DNA of 64,000 bases, taken from the NCBI GenBank assembly GCA_002238725.1, contig MPMX01000006.1, forward strand, positions 1 to 64,000, in the 5' to 3' direction. The stretch is from Rhodospirillaceae bacterium bin65 (lineage in GTDB: Bacteria; Pseudomonadota; Alphaproteobacteria; Bin65). Both the position numbers and the translations under genes were made by a program. The notes under the pieces are model-generated. The model was not told where the DNA came from and ran no database searches. It saw only the letters and a program-made list of their open reading frames with translations. Shown in pieces: positions 1-55,443 of this stretch (the stretch's first letter is position 1; the number at the start of each line of letters is the position of its first letter).

Positions 1-1
1 C

Positions 2-51
2 TGTCAATCGGCATTCAAAGTTGACCCGGAATCGGCGTGCAATATTGACCC
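2..51. repeat. IS21 terminal repeat, istB-side end
   Basis: Two tandem copies of a 21-bp motif lie at 7-27 and 31-51, identical at 17 of 21 positions and 24 bp apart. The outer copy forms the terminal inverted repeat with the other end of the element. Confidence 0.85.
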
Positions 52-202
52 TTCTGGGGGCTGGATGGAGGTTGTCCCGGTAGTCCATAGGGGGGACCCG
101 CGCGGCTTCGCGTAGCGCTTTGCGCGACGCGGAGCGAAGCCGCGTGGGGGGTGCCTGTGGACCCACCGGGTCAACCGGGCCGCAGGCTCGCCCAGCGCCG
201 GG

Positions 203-931
203 TTACGAGCGGTGCTTGAAGCGCCAGCTCTCGTTGCCGGTCTCGACGATCTCGCAATGGTGGGTGAGGCGGTCGAGCAGGGCCGTGGTCATCTTGGGAT
301 CGCCAAAGACGGATGGCCATTCGCCGAAGGCGAGGTTGGTGGTGACGACGATCGAGGTGCGCTCGTAGAGCCGGCTCATGAGGTGGAACAACAGCTGGCC
401 GCCGGCCTGGGCGAAGGGCAGATAGCCGAGTTCGTCGAGGATGACGAAGTCGCGCCGGGTGAGCTGGTCGGCGGTGCGGCCCTGGCGTCCGGAGCGGTGC
501 TCGGCGTCGAGATGGTTGACCAGGTCGACAACATTGTAGCAGCGGCCGCGGGCGCCCTTGCGGATACAGGACCGGGCGACGGCGACGGCGAGATGGGTCT
601 TGCCGGTCCCGGTGCCGCCGACCAGCACGATGTTGCGCTTGCCCTCCAGGAAGCCGCCGCCGGCGAGATCGCGGATCAGGGGCTCGTTGACCGGCGAGGC
701 GGCGAAGTCGAAGTCGGCCAGCTCGTTGGCCGCCGGCAGCTTGGCGCTCGTCATCTGGTACTTGATCGAGCGCGCCGTCTTGTCGGCGATCTCGGCCTGG
801 AGCAGCGCGCCGATAATCTGCTGCACCGGATGGCGCCGCTTGAGGCCGTCGGCGAGGAGCTCGTCATAGGCGGCGCGCATGCCCGACAGCTTGAGCGTCG
901 TCATCATCGACAGCACGTCATGCCGCTCCAT
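203..931 (-). CDS. istB: IS21 helper ATPase IstB
   Basis: This is a 242-residue AAA+ ATPase related to DnaC that assists the IstA transposase by remodelling target DNA. A Walker A motif [11 protein letters not shown] lies near residue 107 and a Walker B region [11 protein letters not shown] near 165; the C-terminus carries a sensor-like DRLTHH segment. The start chosen (MERHDV, 931) gives the usual family length, and a longer upstream reading is only the shadow of istA. The start overlaps the istA stop by 14 bases, so translation is probably coupled. No disruption is visible, so the element looks functional. Confidence 0.95.
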
Positions 932-2432
932 GGCCGGCCTCCCGCAGGCAGTCGTAGCGATGGCAGTCGGCAGTCGGCCGGCAGCGCAGCTGCAGGCTTT
1001 CCGGCGTCGGGATGTCCGGCACCGGCGCCGGCTGGCGCCACCGGGCGAGGATGTTGAGCACCACGTCGGCGCTGCATGCGCCGCTCTCGAGCGCCTCGGC
1101 GCAAGCCGCCTCGACCGCCTCCAGCCCGTCCTCCTGAACCGCCGCGAGAACCTTGACGAACTGCCGGTCGCCGTCGGCACGGCCGGCGACGCGGACCCGC
1201 AGACGGCCCAGCGCGGCGGGCAGATGCCAGTCCCTGAAGGGCGCGCCGTTGCGCAGCGCGCCCGGCTTTCTCTTCAGGATCGGCACATAGTGCCAGGGAT
1301 CGTAGACGACCTGGCCGCGCGCGAAGCTCCGGGGATGCTCGGCGACGATCTCGCCGTCCTGGCGGATGACGATCTTCTCGGCATAGGCGCGCACGTCGAC
1401 CGGCCGGCCGATGGCGCGGGCCGCCACGCTGTACTGGTTGTTGTCGAAGCGCACCAGGCAGGTCTTCGAGACCGCCGCCTCGGCGGCGTGGAAGCCGTCG
1501 AACGGACCGCGGTACGCCATCAGGAAAGGCTGTTCCTCCTCGAAGACCTGCCACACCGTCTTGCCCGGGATCGTCGGATGCGCCCGCCGTTTGGCGTCCC
1601 GGATACAGGCGTCCAGCAGCCACGCGTTGAGCTCGGCGTAGGACCGGCCCCGCGGCCGCGGCACGAACAGGCGGCTGCGCGCGTAGCCCACCTGGTTCTC
1701 GACCTGGCCCTTCTCCCATCCGGCTCCGGGGGTGCAGGCCACCGGCTCGACCAGATGGTGCGAACACATCTCCTGGAAGCGCCGGTTGTAGGCCCGCTCC
1801 TTGCCGACGAAGACCGTGCTCACCGCCGTCTTCATGTTGTCGTAGATGCCCCGCCGGCACACCCCGCCGAAGAACCCGAACCCCCGGTCGTGCGCCTCGA
1901 ACACCATCTCCTGGCCCTCGCGCGGGAACAGCTGGACCAGCAGCATCCGGCTGTGGCACAGCCGCATGTGCGCCGCCTTCACCTTGGTCGTGACGCCCGA
2001 CAGGATCGCGTATTCGTGGCTCCAGTCGAACTGGTAGGCCTCGCCCGGATCGAAGATCAGCGGCACATAGGCCTGTGTCGCCGGCTGCGCCTGGCGCCGG
2101 CGGCGCCAGTCCCGGGCATAGCGGCGCACCGCGTCGTAGCCGCCCTCATAGCCCAGCGCCGCCAGCTCTTCGTAAAGCCGCACGTAGGTCAGCCGGTCCC
2201 GGCGCTGCTTCTTCTCGTCCGCCTCCAGGCGCCGCTCCAGCTCACCGATCCAAAGACCCAGCTTCGGCCGCGGCTGAACCGTGCGGTCGTAGCCGAACGA
2301 CGTCTCGTCGCTCCGCACCGCCTTGCGGATCGTGTTCCGCGCAACCTTCAGATCCCGGACCAGCTTCCGGATCGGCGTGCCCTTGCCCAGATGTTCCCGA
2401 CGGATCCGTGCAATCGTCTCCACAACCAGCAT
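918..2432 (-). CDS. istA: IS21 transposase IstA
   Basis: This is a 504-residue DDE transposase of the IS21 family. The N-terminus is a helix-turn-helix DNA-binding region ([19 protein letters not shown] onward). The catalytic core (rve fold) starts with a first Asp in YQFDWSH near residue 135 and continues through YDNMK near 200 to [12 protein letters not shown] near 240, which supplies the catalytic Glu. A C-terminal Mu-type beta-barrel region follows. It is full length with no frameshift. The reading frame on the opposite strand is open throughout, which creates an artificial fusion with the downstream gene and should not be annotated. Confidence 0.95.
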
Positions 2433-2489
2433 CTCCCCCCACCTCGTACGTCCAAAAACGAGGTGCGTTCAAAAACCACGATATCCGGG

Positions 2490-2549
2490 GGGTCAATTTT
2501 GGACGCCGATCACCCCAGAAAGGGGGTCAATATTCCACGCCGAATGACA
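2490..2549. repeat. IS21 terminal repeat, istA-side end
   Basis: Inverted copies of the same 21-bp motif lie at 2490-2510 and 2524-2544, and the tip TGACA at 2545-2549 mirrors TGTCA at position 2. The tip also supplies an ATG at 2544 in frame with the interrupted downstream gene. Confidence 0.85.
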
Positions 2550-5500
2550 CCTACCGAAGTTACACTGCCTTTTGGCCTCCACATCAATGCCGATTGGCTA
2601 TTGAACATCTCGCGGGGCGATCTCCGGGAAATCGAGGACAATGCTTGGCAACGCGGTATCGTGGAGAGAGTTGCGAACTTGCTGGCAAGCTTCCTCGAAT
2701 GGTCCGCTGACACCTTGTCCGAGCCTCGCGCCGTCAAGGCTGCATTCAAGGTTCTGGCGCCGCCTTTATCTGAAACGGACGGCCTCGAAGCGCTCTTTGC
2801 CGACGAGCGCTGGATGTCGAGATTACGGGGTCAACTTGAGAATGCTGCAGTATTCCCCGTGTGGACCGACGACAGCGATACGCTGGATCGCGCTAAGCCG
2901 GGCGATATCCTCGTTCCGCCCGCGCCGCTCGGGGAGGCATTCAGGAAACAACCGGAGTTGCGGCCGAGCGCTCTCCTTAAAGGGTCCGTGCTCAGGAGTG
3001 ACCTGCTTGGCCTCGACGCTCTCAGGTTTCTTCGCCGAATTGGTCTATTCGCCGAAATGTCGCCGCAAGGTTTGGAGCACGCATGGGAAGGCGGCCTAGA
3101 GGATTGGTGGCGGACACTCCCCGGTGAGAAGGATAAACGCCGTCGCTTCCTTTTCCGCATATGGGCTGCGGTCGCCGAATTGACCTCCGAGAGCGAGTGG
3201 CTTGACATCGATCTTCCCTGCGTCCGCTCGGTCACCGGGCAATGGCTCATCGTGCAGGAAACGGCGTTTCTCAACGAGACGCTACCCGCCAAAAACGAAC
3301 CCGGTGGCCCGGAAACCCTCCAGCTCATGCTGCCGGTCATCCCGGACGCGAACCGGTTGGACAGAAGATGGATTGCCGCCCTTCGCCAACGGAAACGGGA
3401 AGATACCGAATACACGCTTCTATCAAAAGCATGGAATTGGATTGAAGGATATGCCCAAAGCATCGGCCTGCGGGAGATCGTTGAAGATGCAGTGAACGCT
3501 CTGTTGTCATCGTCGAATCCGGACCGGTCGGTACTCGTCCCGTTTGGGTACTGGGCGAAGCACCGTGGTCGCCCTAAACTGCTGACTCATGTGCTCGCGG
3601 AATCGAAGGGAGAATTGCTGGGTTTGCCGGTCGGCGATGCGCTCTTGGCCGATCCTTATATAGAGAGCGGCCAAAGCCGCCGGCTGTTGTTTCCAGAAAT
3701 CCCTGCAATCTCTGCGATCTACTTGAAAGGCGATCCAAAGAACAGTGGCGCTCACGAATGGCGCACGTTCTTTGAGAAGGCCGGTGCCAAGGGGATGCCC
3801 ACAGTCAATACCATTGAAGCCAAAGCGAGTCGATGGTATCGTGCGACGGTCGCCGAATTTTTAGGCCTCAAGATTGGTCCGAGTAACGAATCGAATAATG
3901 ATGGATACACTTTGTTGGACTTTGATATCGAGTTGGACGTTCCAGATCAAGATTCACCCCAAGATTACCGAAACGCATTCGCTAATTGGATTAACGATGG
4001 TTACGGCGTCCTAAAACACAAGGGTCGACGATTGTGTACCTTTCACTACTATAGTGAGCAAAGCATTAAGGGTAACTTCAAGAGCAAATGGGCGGCCAAG
4101 CTATCTGAGCGGGAATGGGTTCCGTGCATAGATGGTCAATTCCGGTGTCCGAAGGACTTGCTTCCTCGGGATGATCCGGCACGAGAAGACGCCCCTGTCG
4201 CGCGGCTGTCGTCCGATCTAGTATCTATGCTAGAGAACGAGGGCGTAGAATTTGGTACGGAGATTCCTGAAGCCACGTCGCTTCGCAAGCTGTCGGCGGT
4301 AGGCTCCCGACTCAATGCAGAGGCGCTTGCACGCCTACTTTCCGAATGCCGAGAACAGATAGAAACGGCTACGGATCGGGATATTTTCGGTCGAGCATTG
4401 CAAACGCTCACTGTGCCGTCGAGCGACGGACCACGTGTCACGCTCGACCGAATCGTTCAGAGGGCTGGAGGGCGCTCCCGCGGTGCGTTGGGAGGTTGGA
4501 TCGTTTCGCTCAATGGTATCGACGAAATACTGAGATTGGAATTGACTCGTTCCGATTTTCCTTTTGAGTTTCCGGAAACGACTACGGGCGACCAAGCGCT
4601 GAACTACATTCACGATATCTGGAGGCGGTCCCGTTCTACACCAGAAGGACTGGCGACCGAGGTTCGCGACGTTCTTCCAACTGCCTATACATACTGCTTG
4701 GAAGATTGCGCCGAAAACGCTTTGCTCTCTAAACGATGGAATGACGCTGTAACGGAGGCGTCGGTTTTCGCCGAACGGGAATGGGTCGTCTTGACCGAAG
4801 CGGACGATATCCGCTTCGACGATATTGAAGACCGGAGGTTTCTCCCAAGTGAGATGCAGGGGAGAACAGTCACGGGCGGACACCTCGGTAATTCCCGATC
4901 CGAACAGCTTCGCACCGTGAGAGCATTAGGACTGCCGCTCCTGTCGTCGTTCATTGAACTGAATTGGCGTCGAGGAGACCGGATTTCTACCAGTACCAGC
5001 GATTGGGATTTCAATTTCGATCTAATTTGCGAACTTCTCCGAAGAGTTCGGGAAAACATTCCCGGTCACGAAGATGGAAATAAAACCGAACTTGGTGTGA
5101 GGCCGGCTTTGGTGCGTGTCGAATGGCTCGCCGTCGATGTTCGCGTCGACAACGGTTCTATAGAACATGTTCCGGTGAACGCCCGAATACACGATGGCGC
5201 TCTCACTGTTGCTGGCCGTCCAGTCCAGTTTAGCGCCGAGGCAGCCAAGGAACTCTTGCGAGAATTTTCATTTGGGCAACGCGGCGAGCTTGCTGCCGAC
5301 CTTACCGGCATGTTGACCGCCATCGACGACGAACAGGATTTCGGCTTGGCTGCGGACAAGTTCCGGCGCTCCCATGCCCCCGAGTTCGAGTTGCCACGGC
5401 CGTTCCTATCCGCTCTGGATAATGGCGAGGCAGCCGGTTCGGGAGGCGGCGGATCGAGCCAAACCGCGGATGCAACAGAAATGATCACGGGACAGGAGGC

Positions 5501-6194
5501 GGGTGCAGGGCCGTCCGCGGATAGAACACTCACTCAATCCGCCGCTGAAATCGGCAGGCCTGATTTATCCGATGATGCCAATGCTCCGGCCGGTCAATCA
5601 TCGAAATCCGAGACCAAGGAGTCGCAAGTAACAGGAGGATCCTACACTAAGGATAGGTCTCTCGCCCGTCAGAATGCCCTTGCGGAGCAATTGAAGAGTG
5701 CGCTGAAAGGTGAGCTCGTTCCGGAGCGCGAAGAAGAAAGTGCAACTGAGGCGGAAGCCAACAATGGAGATTCCATAGGTCGCCTAGGGGATGAAGAATA
5801 TCGGAACGTCGCCGCGCAATATGAGAAGGAGGCCGGGCGCGAGCCACAGATTGGCGATCCCCATCAGTCGGGCTGGGACATTCGCAGCATCGATCCGAAT
5901 ACCGAGAGGGTTCGACTGATCGAAGTGAAAGGGAAGGGGTGCCCGTGGGACGAAGATGAAGTCGTGGAGCTAACTCGGGCGCAGATGCGCACGGCGTTTG
6001 AAGACGGAGACTTGTGGTATCTTTATGTCGTCGAGAGAACGGATGACGGCAGTTTCCGGGTGCTTCCTATTCAGAATCCGGCCAACCTTGCCGCCAAGTG
6101 GATTCTTCCCGGCAAATCTTGGCGCACGATAGCCGACGAACCCAAGCGGATTGCGGGTTCTCCGAATCGATCCAAAACGGATAGCGACAACTAG
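2550..6194 (+). pseudogene. C-terminal fragment of giant sacsin-like ATPase / DUF3883 protein, cut by IS21
   Basis: About 1,214 residues remain of a much larger protein. The segment starts at the IS21 end with LPFGLHINADWLLNISR, which resembles the region that follows the GHKL/HSP90-type ATPase domain in sacsin-like bacterial proteins; that ATPase domain should lie left of the window. A long helical middle part is followed by a low-complexity linker (about 5420-5780). The C-terminal DUF3883-type domain has GWDIRS followed by RLIEVKGKG, compatible with the D...ExK core of PD-(D/E)XK nucleases. Base composition is lower in G+C than the neighbours, which suggests transfer. The ATG inside the IS end (2544) has no ribosome-binding site, so expression of the fragment is doubtful. 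The function (nucleic-acid or defence related) is inferred from the family. Confidence 0.72.
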
Positions 6195-6310
6195 CTTCCC
6201 ACGATTGATCTTCGGGGTCGCGCAAGCCGTTACCGGCTAACGGCGAATGATGCTATAAAGCCGCCCAACTTCCGGCTCTCACCCGCGTTCCGCGCCCGTC
6301 GGGAGGCTGC

Positions 6311-7294
6311 ATGAACGTCACCGCCTATGCCGCATCGGTCGGCCACTCGGTCTGGTTCAGCCACGACCTGGGCGAGACGTGGAACCGCGCCTTCACACCG
6401 ACCGGCGGCATCTACAACGAATCCCGCGCCTGGTGCGTGGCGACCCACCCGGCGCGGCGCGGCGACGTGCTGGCGGGCACCGATCTCGGCGTCTACCGCT
6501 GGACCGTGGCGGGCGACCGCTGGGAGCATCTGCCGTCCCCGATGGACGGGCTGCACATTCTGCAGATCGGCCAGTCGCCCCACGACCCGGATGTCGTCTT
6601 CGCCGGCACGCGCCCGGCGCAGCTCTACCGCTCGGCCGATGGCGGGCGGACCTGGCGGCGCTGCGATGTCGGCAACAGCGTCGAATGCGAATTCATCAAC
6701 ACGCCGCGGGTGACGTCGATCCATTTCGACCCGCGCGATGCCGACACGATCTGGATCACCATCGAGATGGATGGCATCTTCGTCAGCCGCGACGGCGGCG
6801 AGAGCTGGGAGAAATGCATCGAGGGGCTGAAGAGCCCGGACACCCACAATCTCGTCTTCTTCGACGACGAATTGGGAGACGGCCGCACCATCCTGTGCTC
6901 GACCGAGGAAGGCCTGCACCGCAGCCGCGACGAGGGCCGGAGCTGGCAGTTTGTCGAGGTGCCGGATGCGCCCTGGCCCTATTTTCGCTGCATCGCGAAG
7001 CGCACGGACGATTCGGGCGTGGTGTTCCTTTCGGTCGGCGACAAGCCGTCCGGCGAACGGGGCATGCTGTTCCGCAGCCGCGACAGGGGCGAGACCTGGG
7101 CAGTCGTCGACCTGCCGGAGCCGCCGAACACGACGATCTGGTGGATCGCGACCAATCCGGCGGATCCGGACCTGATCTTCTTCTGTACCATCTTCGGCCA
7201 GATCTTCCGCTCGACCGACGGCGGCGAGAACTGGCTCAAATTGCGCCGGGAGCTGGGCGAGCTGCGCATGATCGCCTGGCAGCCGGCAGCGTAG
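6311..7294 (+). CDS. Asp-box (BNR) repeat beta-propeller protein
   Basis: This 327-residue protein is built from repeated sialidase-type Asp boxes of the form S-x-D-x-G-x-[ST]-W. Six are visible: SHDLGETW, SADGGRTW, SRDGGESW, SRDEGRSW, SRDRGETW and STDGGENW. The fold is therefore a six- or seven-bladed propeller, as in sialidases and the photosystem assembly factor YCF48. No catalytic sialidase residues or signal peptide are evident, so glycosidase activity should not be assumed. The ATG at 6311 follows GGGAGG at 6301. It heads a tight four-gene set (6311-9021) with hydrolase and RidA-like genes, so it may act on or bind the same substrate. No specific role can be assigned. Confidence 0.82.
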   Translation: MNVTAYAASVGHSVWFSHDLGETWNRAFTPTGGIYNESRAWCVATHPARRGDVLAGTDLGVYRWTVAGDRWEHLPSPMDGLHILQIGQSPHDPDVVFAGTRPAQLYRSADGGRTWRRCDVGNSVECEFINTPRVTSIHFDPRDADTIWITIEMDGIFVSRDGGESWEKCIEGLKSPDTHNLVFFDDELGDGRTILCSTEEGLHRSRDEGRSWQFVEVPDAPWPYFRCIAKRTDDSGVVFLSVGDKPSGERGMLFRSRDRGETWAVVDLPEPPNTTIWWIATNPADPDLIFFCTIFGQIFRSTDGGENWLKLRRELGELRMIAWQPAA

Positions 7295-11393: not shown

Positions 11394-11738
11394 TCATTCT
11401 CCGGTCTCTGGCGGGACCAGCCGTTCGAGGAGCGGAATGAGGCTGGGAACATCGCGCTCTGCCGTTTCCCATACTCGCGCCAAATTGACATTGAAGTATT
11501 CGTGCACGAGTCGATGTCGCATACCGACAATTTCGGCCCACGGAATTTCGGGATGTGCATTCCTGGTGTCCGTGCTGACGCGGGACGCCGCCTCTCCGAT
11601 GGTCTCCACCGCCTTCAGTATCGCCAGTTGCGACTTGCGGTCTCGCGAAAACGTCTCGAAGGTCAATCCATGCGCAAAATGCGCTGCCTCGCGGGAGGCC
11701 AGCAGCATGTCAAGCAGCAGAATATCGTCACGCCGCAT
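11394..11738 (-). CDS. hepT: HepT-like HEPN (DUF86) toxin
   Basis: This 114-residue HEPN-domain ribonuclease toxin has the RX4HXY motif, visible as Arg74-His75-Arg76-Leu77-Val78-His79-Glu80-Tyr81, which is the catalytic and AMPylation site in HepT. The protein is entirely helical in character. Its start MRRDD (11738) overlaps the upstream nucleotidyltransferase gene by 11 bases, the standard mntA-hepT order. The toxin cleaves RNA, in known cases tRNA, and is neutralised when its Tyr is AMPylated by MntA. Confidence 0.9.
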   Translation of the reverse strand: MRRDDILLLDMLLASREAAHFAHGLTFETFSRDRKSQLAILKAVETIGEAASRVSTDTRNAHPEIPWAEIVGMRHRLVHEYFNVNLARVWETAERDVPSLIPLLERLVPPETGE

Positions 11739-12090
11739 GGATCGTCTCGGCCGCCTCCAATATGGCCTTGCGGCGCAGATAATTGCCGCTCTGTTCGATA
11801 CCCGCGCGTTCGACCAGATCAACCTCGCGTCCGAAGATCGCTTCCAGTTCCTGTTCAATCCGAACCATGTCGAACAGGGAATGGCGCGCGCTATCCGCGA
11901 ATGCGATCAGTACGTCGATATCGCTATTAGGCCCGAAATCGTCCCGCAGGACTGAGCCGAACAAAGCCAGCTTCGTCACCTGCCAGCGTTCGCAGAAAGC
12001 CGCAAGCGTTTCCGGCGGCACGCCGATCCGGGCCTGCAACCGCTCCCCGTTCCCGGTCTTCGCAGTTTCCGTTCCGGATAGCTCAGTCAT
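11728..12090 (-). CDS. mntA: MntA-type nucleotidyltransferase antitoxin
   Basis: This 120-residue minimal nucleotidyltransferase carries the exact GSX10DXD motif, Gly45-Ser46 then Asp57-Ile58-Asp59 in GSVLRDDFGPNSDIDV, and a downstream acidic residue in REVDLVERA for metal binding. In MntA-HepT systems this enzyme AMPylates the toxin Tyr. It is the first gene of the two-gene operon. The 87 bp upstream to the next gene show no clear operator. Confidence 0.9.
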   Translation of the reverse strand: MTELSGTETAKTGNGERLQARIGVPPETLAAFCERWQVTKLALFGSVLRDDFGPNSDIDVLIAFADSARHSLFDMVRIEQELEAIFGREVDLVERAGIEQSGNYLRRKAILEAAETIHAA

Positions 12091-53298: not shown

Positions 53299-53319
53299 GG
53301 TAGTGCATCAGTTTGAATT
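53299..53319. repeat. Left terminal inverted repeat of the IS1-like transposon
   Basis: The sequence begins GGTAGTGCATCAG and is a perfect inverted match over 21 bp to 55730-55750. The transposase stop codon (53308-53310) lies inside it. Confidence 0.92.
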
Positions 53320-54186
53320 GCGGTTCTTGTAGGGACCGCGCGGGCCGGGCTTCGGGGTGCGTTCGTCCATGATCCGCACCAAGTCTTCCATGTCCCAGAC
53401 AGTCTTGCTCAGACCGGCTTCCATGGCCGGGGTGACGCGAAGCGTTTTGTGGATACGGATGAAATTGTACCAAACGGTATAGAGCGCAACCATGTGCATG
53501 TGGTTCTCAAATTTCTTAGAGAACGCATTAGTCAGCCGGGTGAACCGGCGCATGTGCATCCGCATGGTCAGGTTCTGGCGTTCAACGTAGGACGTGCTGA
53601 CCGCGGCCGGGTCGGGGTTGCCTTCGATCCGCCGCTTGCGAGCACCAACGCAGGCAGCGGGGCTGTAGCGCTTCTGTGCTTCCGGAGCTTCGCCGTACAG
53701 CTTGATTAGCTGGGCATAGTCCACATCGCCGCCGAACGCGCCCTCAACAGCTTCCAGATACGCCTTGTGGCCATCTGTCATAAGCTGAACCCGGTTCGCC
53801 AGCCGGCTGCGCAGATCGTCCATGAACTCAATCGCATATTCGCTGTTGCGACCTCCTACCAGCCAAGAGACGATCAGCTTGCTGTCACTGTCTAGCGCGG
53901 TCCATGTCCATGTGTCGCCAGCTTCGGACGGCGCGGCCTTCGCTGTCTTGACGTTCTTCTGTTTGGCATAGGTGAACGACCAGATTTCGTCGCACTGGAT
54001 GCGGCTGGCGGTAACACCCTGCACCATTTCGTCATGCAAATCGGCGCAGACCTTGCCGGCATCGATCAACAACTTGGCGACCGTGTTGAAGCTCACATCG
54101 GCCAGCCGCGCGGTTGCCCGCATGGACTGGCCTTCGCAAAGCATTTTGAGGATCAGGGAACGGGCTTTAGGCGGTAGCTTGTTCAT
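53308..54186 (-). CDS. IS1-like DDE transposase
   Basis: This 292-residue transposase has an N-terminal helix-turn-helix (LILKMLCEGQSMRATARLADVSFNTVAKLL). The catalytic residues are the Asp in IQCDEIWSF, the Asp in LMTDGHKAYLEAV and the Glu in SYVERQNLTMRMHMRRF. The C-terminal WYNFIRIHKTLRVTPAM is typical of the long IS1-related transposases of alphaproteobacteria. It starts at ATG 54186; a longer reading from 54225 has no ribosome-binding site. The last three codons are in the left inverted repeat. It looks intact. Confidence 0.92.
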   Translation of the reverse strand: MNKLPPKARSLILKMLCEGQSMRATARLADVSFNTVAKLLIDAGKVCADLHDEMVQGVTASRIQCDEIWSFTYAKQKNVKTAKAAPSEAGDTWTWTALDSDSKLIVSWLVGGRNSEYAIEFMDDLRSRLANRVQLMTDGHKAYLEAVEGAFGGDVDYAQLIKLYGEAPEAQKRYSPAACVGARKRRIEGNPDPAAVSTSYVERQNLTMRMHMRRFTRLTNAFSKKFENHMHMVALYTVWYNFIRIHKTLRVTPAMEAGLSKTVWDMEDLVRIMDERTPKPGPRGPYKNRNSN

Positions 54187-54192
54187 GTCAAT

Positions 54193-54221
54193 AAAATATG
54201 AACAAAAATGCGTAGCGTCAA
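54193..54221 (-). promoter_or_regulatory. Putative transposase promoter (possibly leaderless)
   Basis: On the minus strand TTGACG (54221-54216) and TATTTT (54198-54193) have a 17-bp spacer. The expected transcript start falls on the ATG at 54186, so the message may be leaderless. Confidence 0.4.
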
Positions 54222-54235
54222 GCATTTATTTCGAG

Positions 54236-54263
54236 TTGTATCTTTTTGCTCCCATGATATATT
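54236..54263 (+). promoter_or_regulatory. Putative promoter of the passenger genes
   Basis: TTGTAT (54236-54241) and TATATT (54258-54263) with a 16-bp spacer lie 30 bp before the first passenger ATG, divergent from the transposase promoter. Confidence 0.45.
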
Positions 54264-54293
54264 CAGCACACCCCCGCCCCTGGAGTGCTACTG

Positions 54294-54467
54294 ATGCAGC
54301 ATATGACCCCTGTCGAGATGCTCAATGAGCTGATTCGCTTAGGCTATATTACCCCTGCCGATGACGCTTCGGCAATCTCCATGCCGAGCGCCTACCAAAG
54401 CGTTCCCAATATTACTGTGTCCGACACCGATCCTGCTGTTGAGGATATAGAGAAAAAAAATGCCTAA
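54294..54467 (+). CDS. Small passenger protein upstream of the protease
   Basis: This 57-residue protein starts MQHMTPVEMLNELIRLGYITPADD and has an acidic C-terminus. It is not recognised. The ATG at 54294 is preceded by GGAG at suitable spacing; a GTG at 54285 is an alternative. Its end overlaps the protease start by eight bases, so the two are translationally coupled and the small protein may be a partner or regulator of the protease. Confidence 0.6.
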   Translation: MQHMTPVEMLNELIRLGYITPADDASAISMPSAYQSVPNITVSDTDPAVEDIEKKNA

Positions 54468-55443
54468 CTGGAATGCTTTACTTAAAGAAATCAAGAAAAC
54501 TCAGGCAATGGGTGATAGCAGTGCATTTGATACCGTAAGACGTAAGTATATTGGCCAGCTAAATACGCACACGGAAAGGAATGTAATTGCGTATTATTCT
54601 GGGTTTTTGAGCAAACCCGGCATTAAGGGAATCGACATTACAGATGAAGACAAGAATTGATTTATGTCATGCGTTCACGGAATGGATAGAAACAAAGGGC
54701 TAGACCTCCTTATTCATACACCCGGTGGCGACATCGCCACAACCGAATCCCTAGTGCATTATTTGAGAGAAATGTTCGGCAACAATATAAGAGCAGTGAT
54801 TCCACAGATCGCTATGTCTGCTGGGACAATGATCGCTTGTTCTTGCGATACAATATTGATGGGCAAGCATTCCAACATTGGCCCCGTTGACCCGCAATTC
54901 AATGGAATACCGGCTATCGGCGTTTTAAAAGAAGTTGAGGTTGCCTTTGATGAAATAAAAAAAGACCCCAAAGCTGCCCCGGCATGGAAGCCAATACTCT
55001 CACAATTACCCCCATCATTCCTGCAACAATGTCAGTGGTCTGTTTCGCGGTCGGCTGAGTTCTTAAAAGATTCGCTTAGAAGTGGAATGTTACGCGACCT
55101 TCAGGAACCGGAAAGAGAAGACACGATCAAGAAAATTGCCGAAAGGTTAACGGACCTTGGATATAACAAAACACACAATCGACATATACACTATCAGGAG
55201 TGCATGGATCTTGGGCTAAATGTAGAAATGCTAGAAAATAAAAAAGAGAAAAAACTACAGGATTTAGTTTTGACGGTACACCATTGCTTTATGCACACTC
55301 TAGCCAATACCGCTTCATTTAAGATTATTGAAGACCACCGAGGCAGGGCGACGATTAAACAACAGCAACGCCCTAGAAATTTGCAAGTTCAGATTCCTGC
55401 AAACGCAGGCCCGACAAACACACCTAAAGTCATTGCGACTTAG
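54460..55443 (+). pseudogene. SDH-family ClpP-fold serine protease with one in-frame TGA
   Basis: The frame reads as one 327-codon gene with a single stop, TGA at 54658-54660. The first part ends AYYSGFLSKPGIKGIDITDEDKN and the second continues FMSCVHGMDRNKGLDLLIHTPGGDIATTES, which joins as a normal SDH (serine dehydrogenase proteinase, ClpP/crotonase superfamily) sequence where a Gly codon (GGA) is expected. The oxyanion strand HTPGGD and nucleophile Ser in IAMSAGTMIACS are present, as is the following GKHSNIGPVDPQF. The part after the stop begins at an ATG (54664) but would lack the N-terminal 66 residues. It is probably a recent nonsense mutation or sequencing error; read-through is possible. 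Confidence 0.8.

Follow-up and report, generated by a model that had tools for sequence, protein, structure and literature searches.

A putative Tiamat-like defense gene apparently cut by an IS21-family element at its ATPase boundary in an alphaproteobacterial genome bin

Results and discussion

The left end of the 64 000-nucleotide stretch of Rhodospirillaceae bacterium bin65 analyzed here (the window) holds an IS21-family element followed directly by the C-terminal part of a TmtA/sacsin-like protein. The reading we favor, at a probability of roughly 70%, is that an acquired TmtA-like gene located between a GST-like and a BNR-repeat gene was later cut by the IS at its ATPase boundary and is now likely an inactive defense gene. 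A TmtA-like (Tiamat-like) gene would have been acquired horizontally and inserted between these two chromosomal genes, and an IS21 insertion would then have landed directly upstream of the proline codon in an 'FLPTE' motif. Judging from its relatives, the intact protein probably used an N-terminal Hsp90/sacsin-type GHKL ATPase as a switch or sensor and a C-terminal DUF3883 PD-(D/E)XK domain as a DNA-cutting effector. An IS between switch and effector would most likely leave the locus inactive.

Biologically, the locus is ordinary, in that both the defense-type gene and the insertion sequence that interrupts it are of known kinds. Its contribution is a further TmtA-like protein, divergent and accessory, from an alphaproteobacterium, and another case of an insertion sequence disrupting a defense-type gene. 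The fragment also marks where the ATPase module can be separated from the remainder of the protein in a poorly understood family.

The IS21-family element and its boundaries

The element spans 2548 bp (positions 2–2549, minus strand). It encodes, on the minus strand, an IstA transposase of 504 aa (918–2432; NF033546, E 4.5e-86; PF22483, PF00665) and an IstB helper ATPase (within 203–946; PF01695, E 1.7e-75; NF038214, E 8.7e-79). The two lie in overlapping frames, and the likely istB start is an ATG near 934 that overlaps the end of istA. The tips (TGTCAATCGGC and GCCGAATGACA; the right one, read inward, is TGTCATTCGGC) are related terminal repeats that share TGTCA.TCGGC, starting from bases 2 and 2549; near either end the tip repeat occurs a second time, internally. 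The same two genes, repeated tips, and TGTCA ends characterize the IS21 family.

Related plasmid elements fix the boundaries, since the alignment of a Sphingomonas plasmid IS (74.6% identity) begins at window base 2 and those of other copies reach 2549. The original prediction that an IS21 tip abuts the frame at 2550 and that this element was the agent of truncation thus agrees with the IstA/IstB families, the TGTCA tips, the boundaries shared with other copies, and a cut lying directly after the tip. Solitary copies of the right IS tip, 28–29 bp long and with no element body nearby, occur at G000:C38:3834-3861 (L003) and G000:C4:3332-3360 (L004).

Window base 1 is also base 1 of its contig (C26; assembly of 4.29 Mb in 94 contigs), leaving a single base of left flank, a C at position 1, which may be the final base of a target duplication. 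A contig that begins one base outside the IS tip, together with a tip sequence found once in the bin, is what would be expected if the insertion were polymorphic, with the intact gene present in part of the population and the contig broken where reads disagree. We consider this improbable, as the right junction is assembled unbroken and no alternative contig overlaps the left end. It is very improbable that IS21 movement turns defense on and off within the population, through a recent and perhaps reversible insertion, with an intact, divergent Tiamat-like gene in some cells and the IS-split copy in others.

An open frame running in from the IS tip

The frame that runs in from the IS tip (2550–6194, plus strand) comprises 1214 codons plus a stop and represents the C-terminal part, about 80% (three quarters), of a TmtA/sacsin-like protein. 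It is free of internal stops over all 1214 codons, whereas the other five frames across these positions contain 24–51 stops each. The lack of stops and frameshifts suggests that the IS insertion is recent.

The IS tip (...CCGAATGACA) supplies an in-frame ATG at 2544, directly before codon 2550. Such a start, leading into a frame intact over 1214 codons, could in principle allow expression of a free-standing, nuclease-bearing protein. We looked for the start signals of a fragment complete in itself and found no Shine-Dalgarno-like sequence before the ATG at 2544 or the next in-frame starts, and no sigma-70-like site in 2400–6400, where 1.5 would be expected in shuffled sequence. The intact relatives examined, moreover, carry the ATPase, and expression of such a free-standing product is very improbable. 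In the favored reading, the locus is regarded as most likely an inactive defense gene because of the lost ATPase and because neither a ribosome-binding site nor a promoter-like site was found.

Position of the cut and the missing ATPase half

The first residues after the cut (2550–2711, plus strand) form the post-GHKL motif PTEVTLPFGLHINADWLLNISRGDL.., which reads 'FLPTE..INADF' in intact relatives. Codon 2550 corresponds in register to the proline of 'FLPTE' and directly follows the IS tip; the end motif of the ATPase in an intact Microvirga protein is FAFLPTEQPAPVPCHINADFFPEQDRK, and the window frame picks up at PTEVTLPFGLHINADWLLNISRGDL. Fragment residues 3–56 match positions 274–325 of an N-terminal profile built from 76 relatives (25 bits, with 200 shuffles reaching 2.4 at most) and positions 296–347 of a profile of full-length relatives. 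These alignments, which exceed the shuffled controls, bear out the expectation that the frame begins just where the GHKL ATPase should end. They imply that about 270–300 residues, i.e. the ATPase, are missing. When aligned globally to intact proteins with MAFFT, the fragment was misplaced, its start falling on the ATPase; the cut position was taken from local and profile alignments instead. A cut at the boundary between the ATPase and the middle region is therefore well supported at the level of sequence comparison.

The left half was searched for in the bin's own genome using the Pfam SACS model, TmtA, a GHKL profile, and the IS tip. Neither the SACS model nor a 15-row profile of GHKL N-termini found a match in the bin, which is 96% complete, whereas the latter profile matched in four control genomes. 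The own GST gene, traced by way of the congeners, lies on contig C3 (4518 bp), which stops ∼19 codons inside the gene, and C26 starts at window base 1; the left half, if present, would thus be in the assembly gap that separates C3 from C26. We infer that the IS inserted into a gene that still had its ATPase half.

An IS-promoted adjacent deletion or rearrangement may instead have taken the ATPase half, and perhaps more, leaving the C-terminal remnant beside unrelated DNA. The absence of any GHKL or SACS match in the 96%-complete bin is in line with such a loss, but is uninformative given that the stretch from C3 to the window is unassembled. The base at position 1 leans slightly and weakly the same way: two related IS copies are flanked by duplications of 7 bp (TGCAGGT) and 8 bp (GTCGACGG), lengths that would predict G or A at base 1, whereas the observed C fits a 5- or 6-bp duplication only. 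Target duplications of the IS21 family range from 4 to 8 bp, however, and the 5–6 bp lengths would permit a C. We regard a deletion as unlikely, and simple insertion into an acquired gene remains our preferred reading.

Relationship to TmtA and the intact relatives

Among named families the nearest is TmtA, from the Tiamat anti-phage system, matched by the PADLOC model PDLC03969 (E 9.8e-31) only over residues 990–1201. A profile of 32 long relatives matched the fragment in three collinear segments (profile positions 296–347, 662–757, and 1248–1533) totaling 103 bits, the best of 100 shuffles reaching −0.4. The second of these (domain 2, 6.1 bits) corresponds to the middle region at 3747–4187 on the plus strand, where collinear similarity to TmtA profile positions 662–757 is weak. 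Outside both ends, the fragment shows weak similarity to known TmtA proteins.

The fragment thus shares with TmtA the C-terminal DUF3883 region, a collinear middle, the post-GHKL motif, and an implied length of ∼1500 aa; it differs in its highly diverged middle, in the absence of the ATPase half from the assembled sequence, and in being cut by an IS. The sacsin-like/DUF3883 identity first proposed for 2550–6194 is upheld by this profile search, through PF13020, the TmtA profile, and the relatives' profile, and its assignment to a defense-type family by the TmtA/Tiamat match in PADLOC. By analogy, the intact protein would have had an anti-phage function; the mechanism of Tiamat has been described as unknown (PMC10482375).

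Searches with the fragment alone found no relative among genome contigs, viral contigs, or phage records. A match in G346 (residues 899–1005) was set aside as chance, since it sits in a GHMP-kinase-like frame, by eye IspE. Four candidates (L021, L022, L023, and L025) were dropped as full-length relatives because they are DUF3883-bearing SNF2-type helicases.

Intact relatives were gathered from whole genomes, plasmids, and species genomes. A Microvirga plasmid protein of 1584 aa (WP_203448294.1) is intact and matches PDLC03969 over its whole length. The relatives scanned with Pfam have a sacsin-type (SACS) ATPase toward the N-terminus and, in most cases, a C-terminal NOV_C; the intact set with this architecture comprises the Microvirga protein and 76 others, mostly from species genomes. 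The N-terminal sacsin-type GHKL ATPase measures about 270–300 residues and ends in the 'FLPTE...INADF' motif. A profile of 15 of these N-termini matched the solved Hsp90-like domain of sacsin (5v47, E 2.2e-26); this domain (PDB 5v44–5v47) is carried N-terminally by the relatives and is absent from the window. Human sacsin, as described in PMC3710099, differs in having no DUF3883.

Some relatives adjoin restriction-modification or toxin-antitoxin genes. Several intact TmtA-like genes are followed by a UvrD-type helicase gene (∼570 aa), with ends overlapping or nearly touching (L043:5645-12207, L059:7974-14511, L047:7944-14436, L066:7965-14454, L051:7965-14442, and L053:12706-14400), and four of the five such helicases scanned have an N-terminal NERD nuclease domain. 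The two genes may form a unit; no UvrD-type helicase gene is found on the right side of the window copy. Intact sacsin-like GHKL proteins of ∼1030 aa also occur in two congeners (L037:2461-8823 in G002 and L038:5720-12411 in G006), at other loci and directly downstream of a large gene that is helicase-like by eye.

The DUF3883 domain

The fragment ends, as anticipated, in a DUF3883 (NOV_C) domain with a D...EVK pattern, a predicted nuclease located at 5808–6047 on the plus strand (PF13020, E 6.8e-11, residues 1089–1168 counted from 2544). The motif residues, D at 5877–5879 and EVK at 5922–5930 on the same strand, fall in invariant columns, and G.D...EVK is conserved without exception across 21 aligned relatives. 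Modeled with AlphaFold (pLDDT 78; two rows from plasmid records were left out of the modeling input), the domain retrieved archaeal Hjc, RecU, and SPARDA nuclease chains in Foldseek, with E-values no lower than 2.5e-4 and TM-scores of around 0.5. The predicted fold and the D...EVK motif resemble those of these PD-(D/E)XK nucleases, with which the domain shares only 10–15% identity. DUF3883 has already been named as a novel REase domain (PMC3710099), and the domain of the fragment is predicted to adopt a PD-(D/E)XK nuclease fold with its motif intact.

Genomic setting

GC content is 0.56 in the fragment stretch (2550–6194) and 0.67 in the rest of the window. The gene is absent at this site from all five congeners compared (G001–G005), where the GST-like gene adjoins the BNR-repeat gene. 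Synteny with these gene-free congeners starts at base 6282 or 6291, with the GST-like gene upstream in 5/5, which identifies the fragment as an accessory insertion between the two genes; the foreign insert closes with 87 bases (6195–6281) ahead of the core synteny. Absence from the five congeners and lower GC support an accessory status of the gene at its site, and both are consistent with the low G+C and acquired origin originally put forward.

The same intergenic site in congener G005 is occupied by a PIN_3 toxin paired with a Phd/YefM antitoxin (L142:5479-6717), and apparent PIN remnants lie upstream of the BNR gene in G001 and G003 (L139 and L140). From these occurrences, the GST–BNR site seems to take up toxin-antitoxin or defense genes repeatedly.

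Elsewhere in the window, a HepT-like RNase lies beside a nucleotidyltransferase as a HepT/MntA-type toxin-antitoxin pair (11397–12090, minus strand). A low-GC patch at 53311–55440 contains an IS1-type transposase (53311–54222, minus strand) and a ClpP-like SDH-type serine protease (54664–55437, plus strand).
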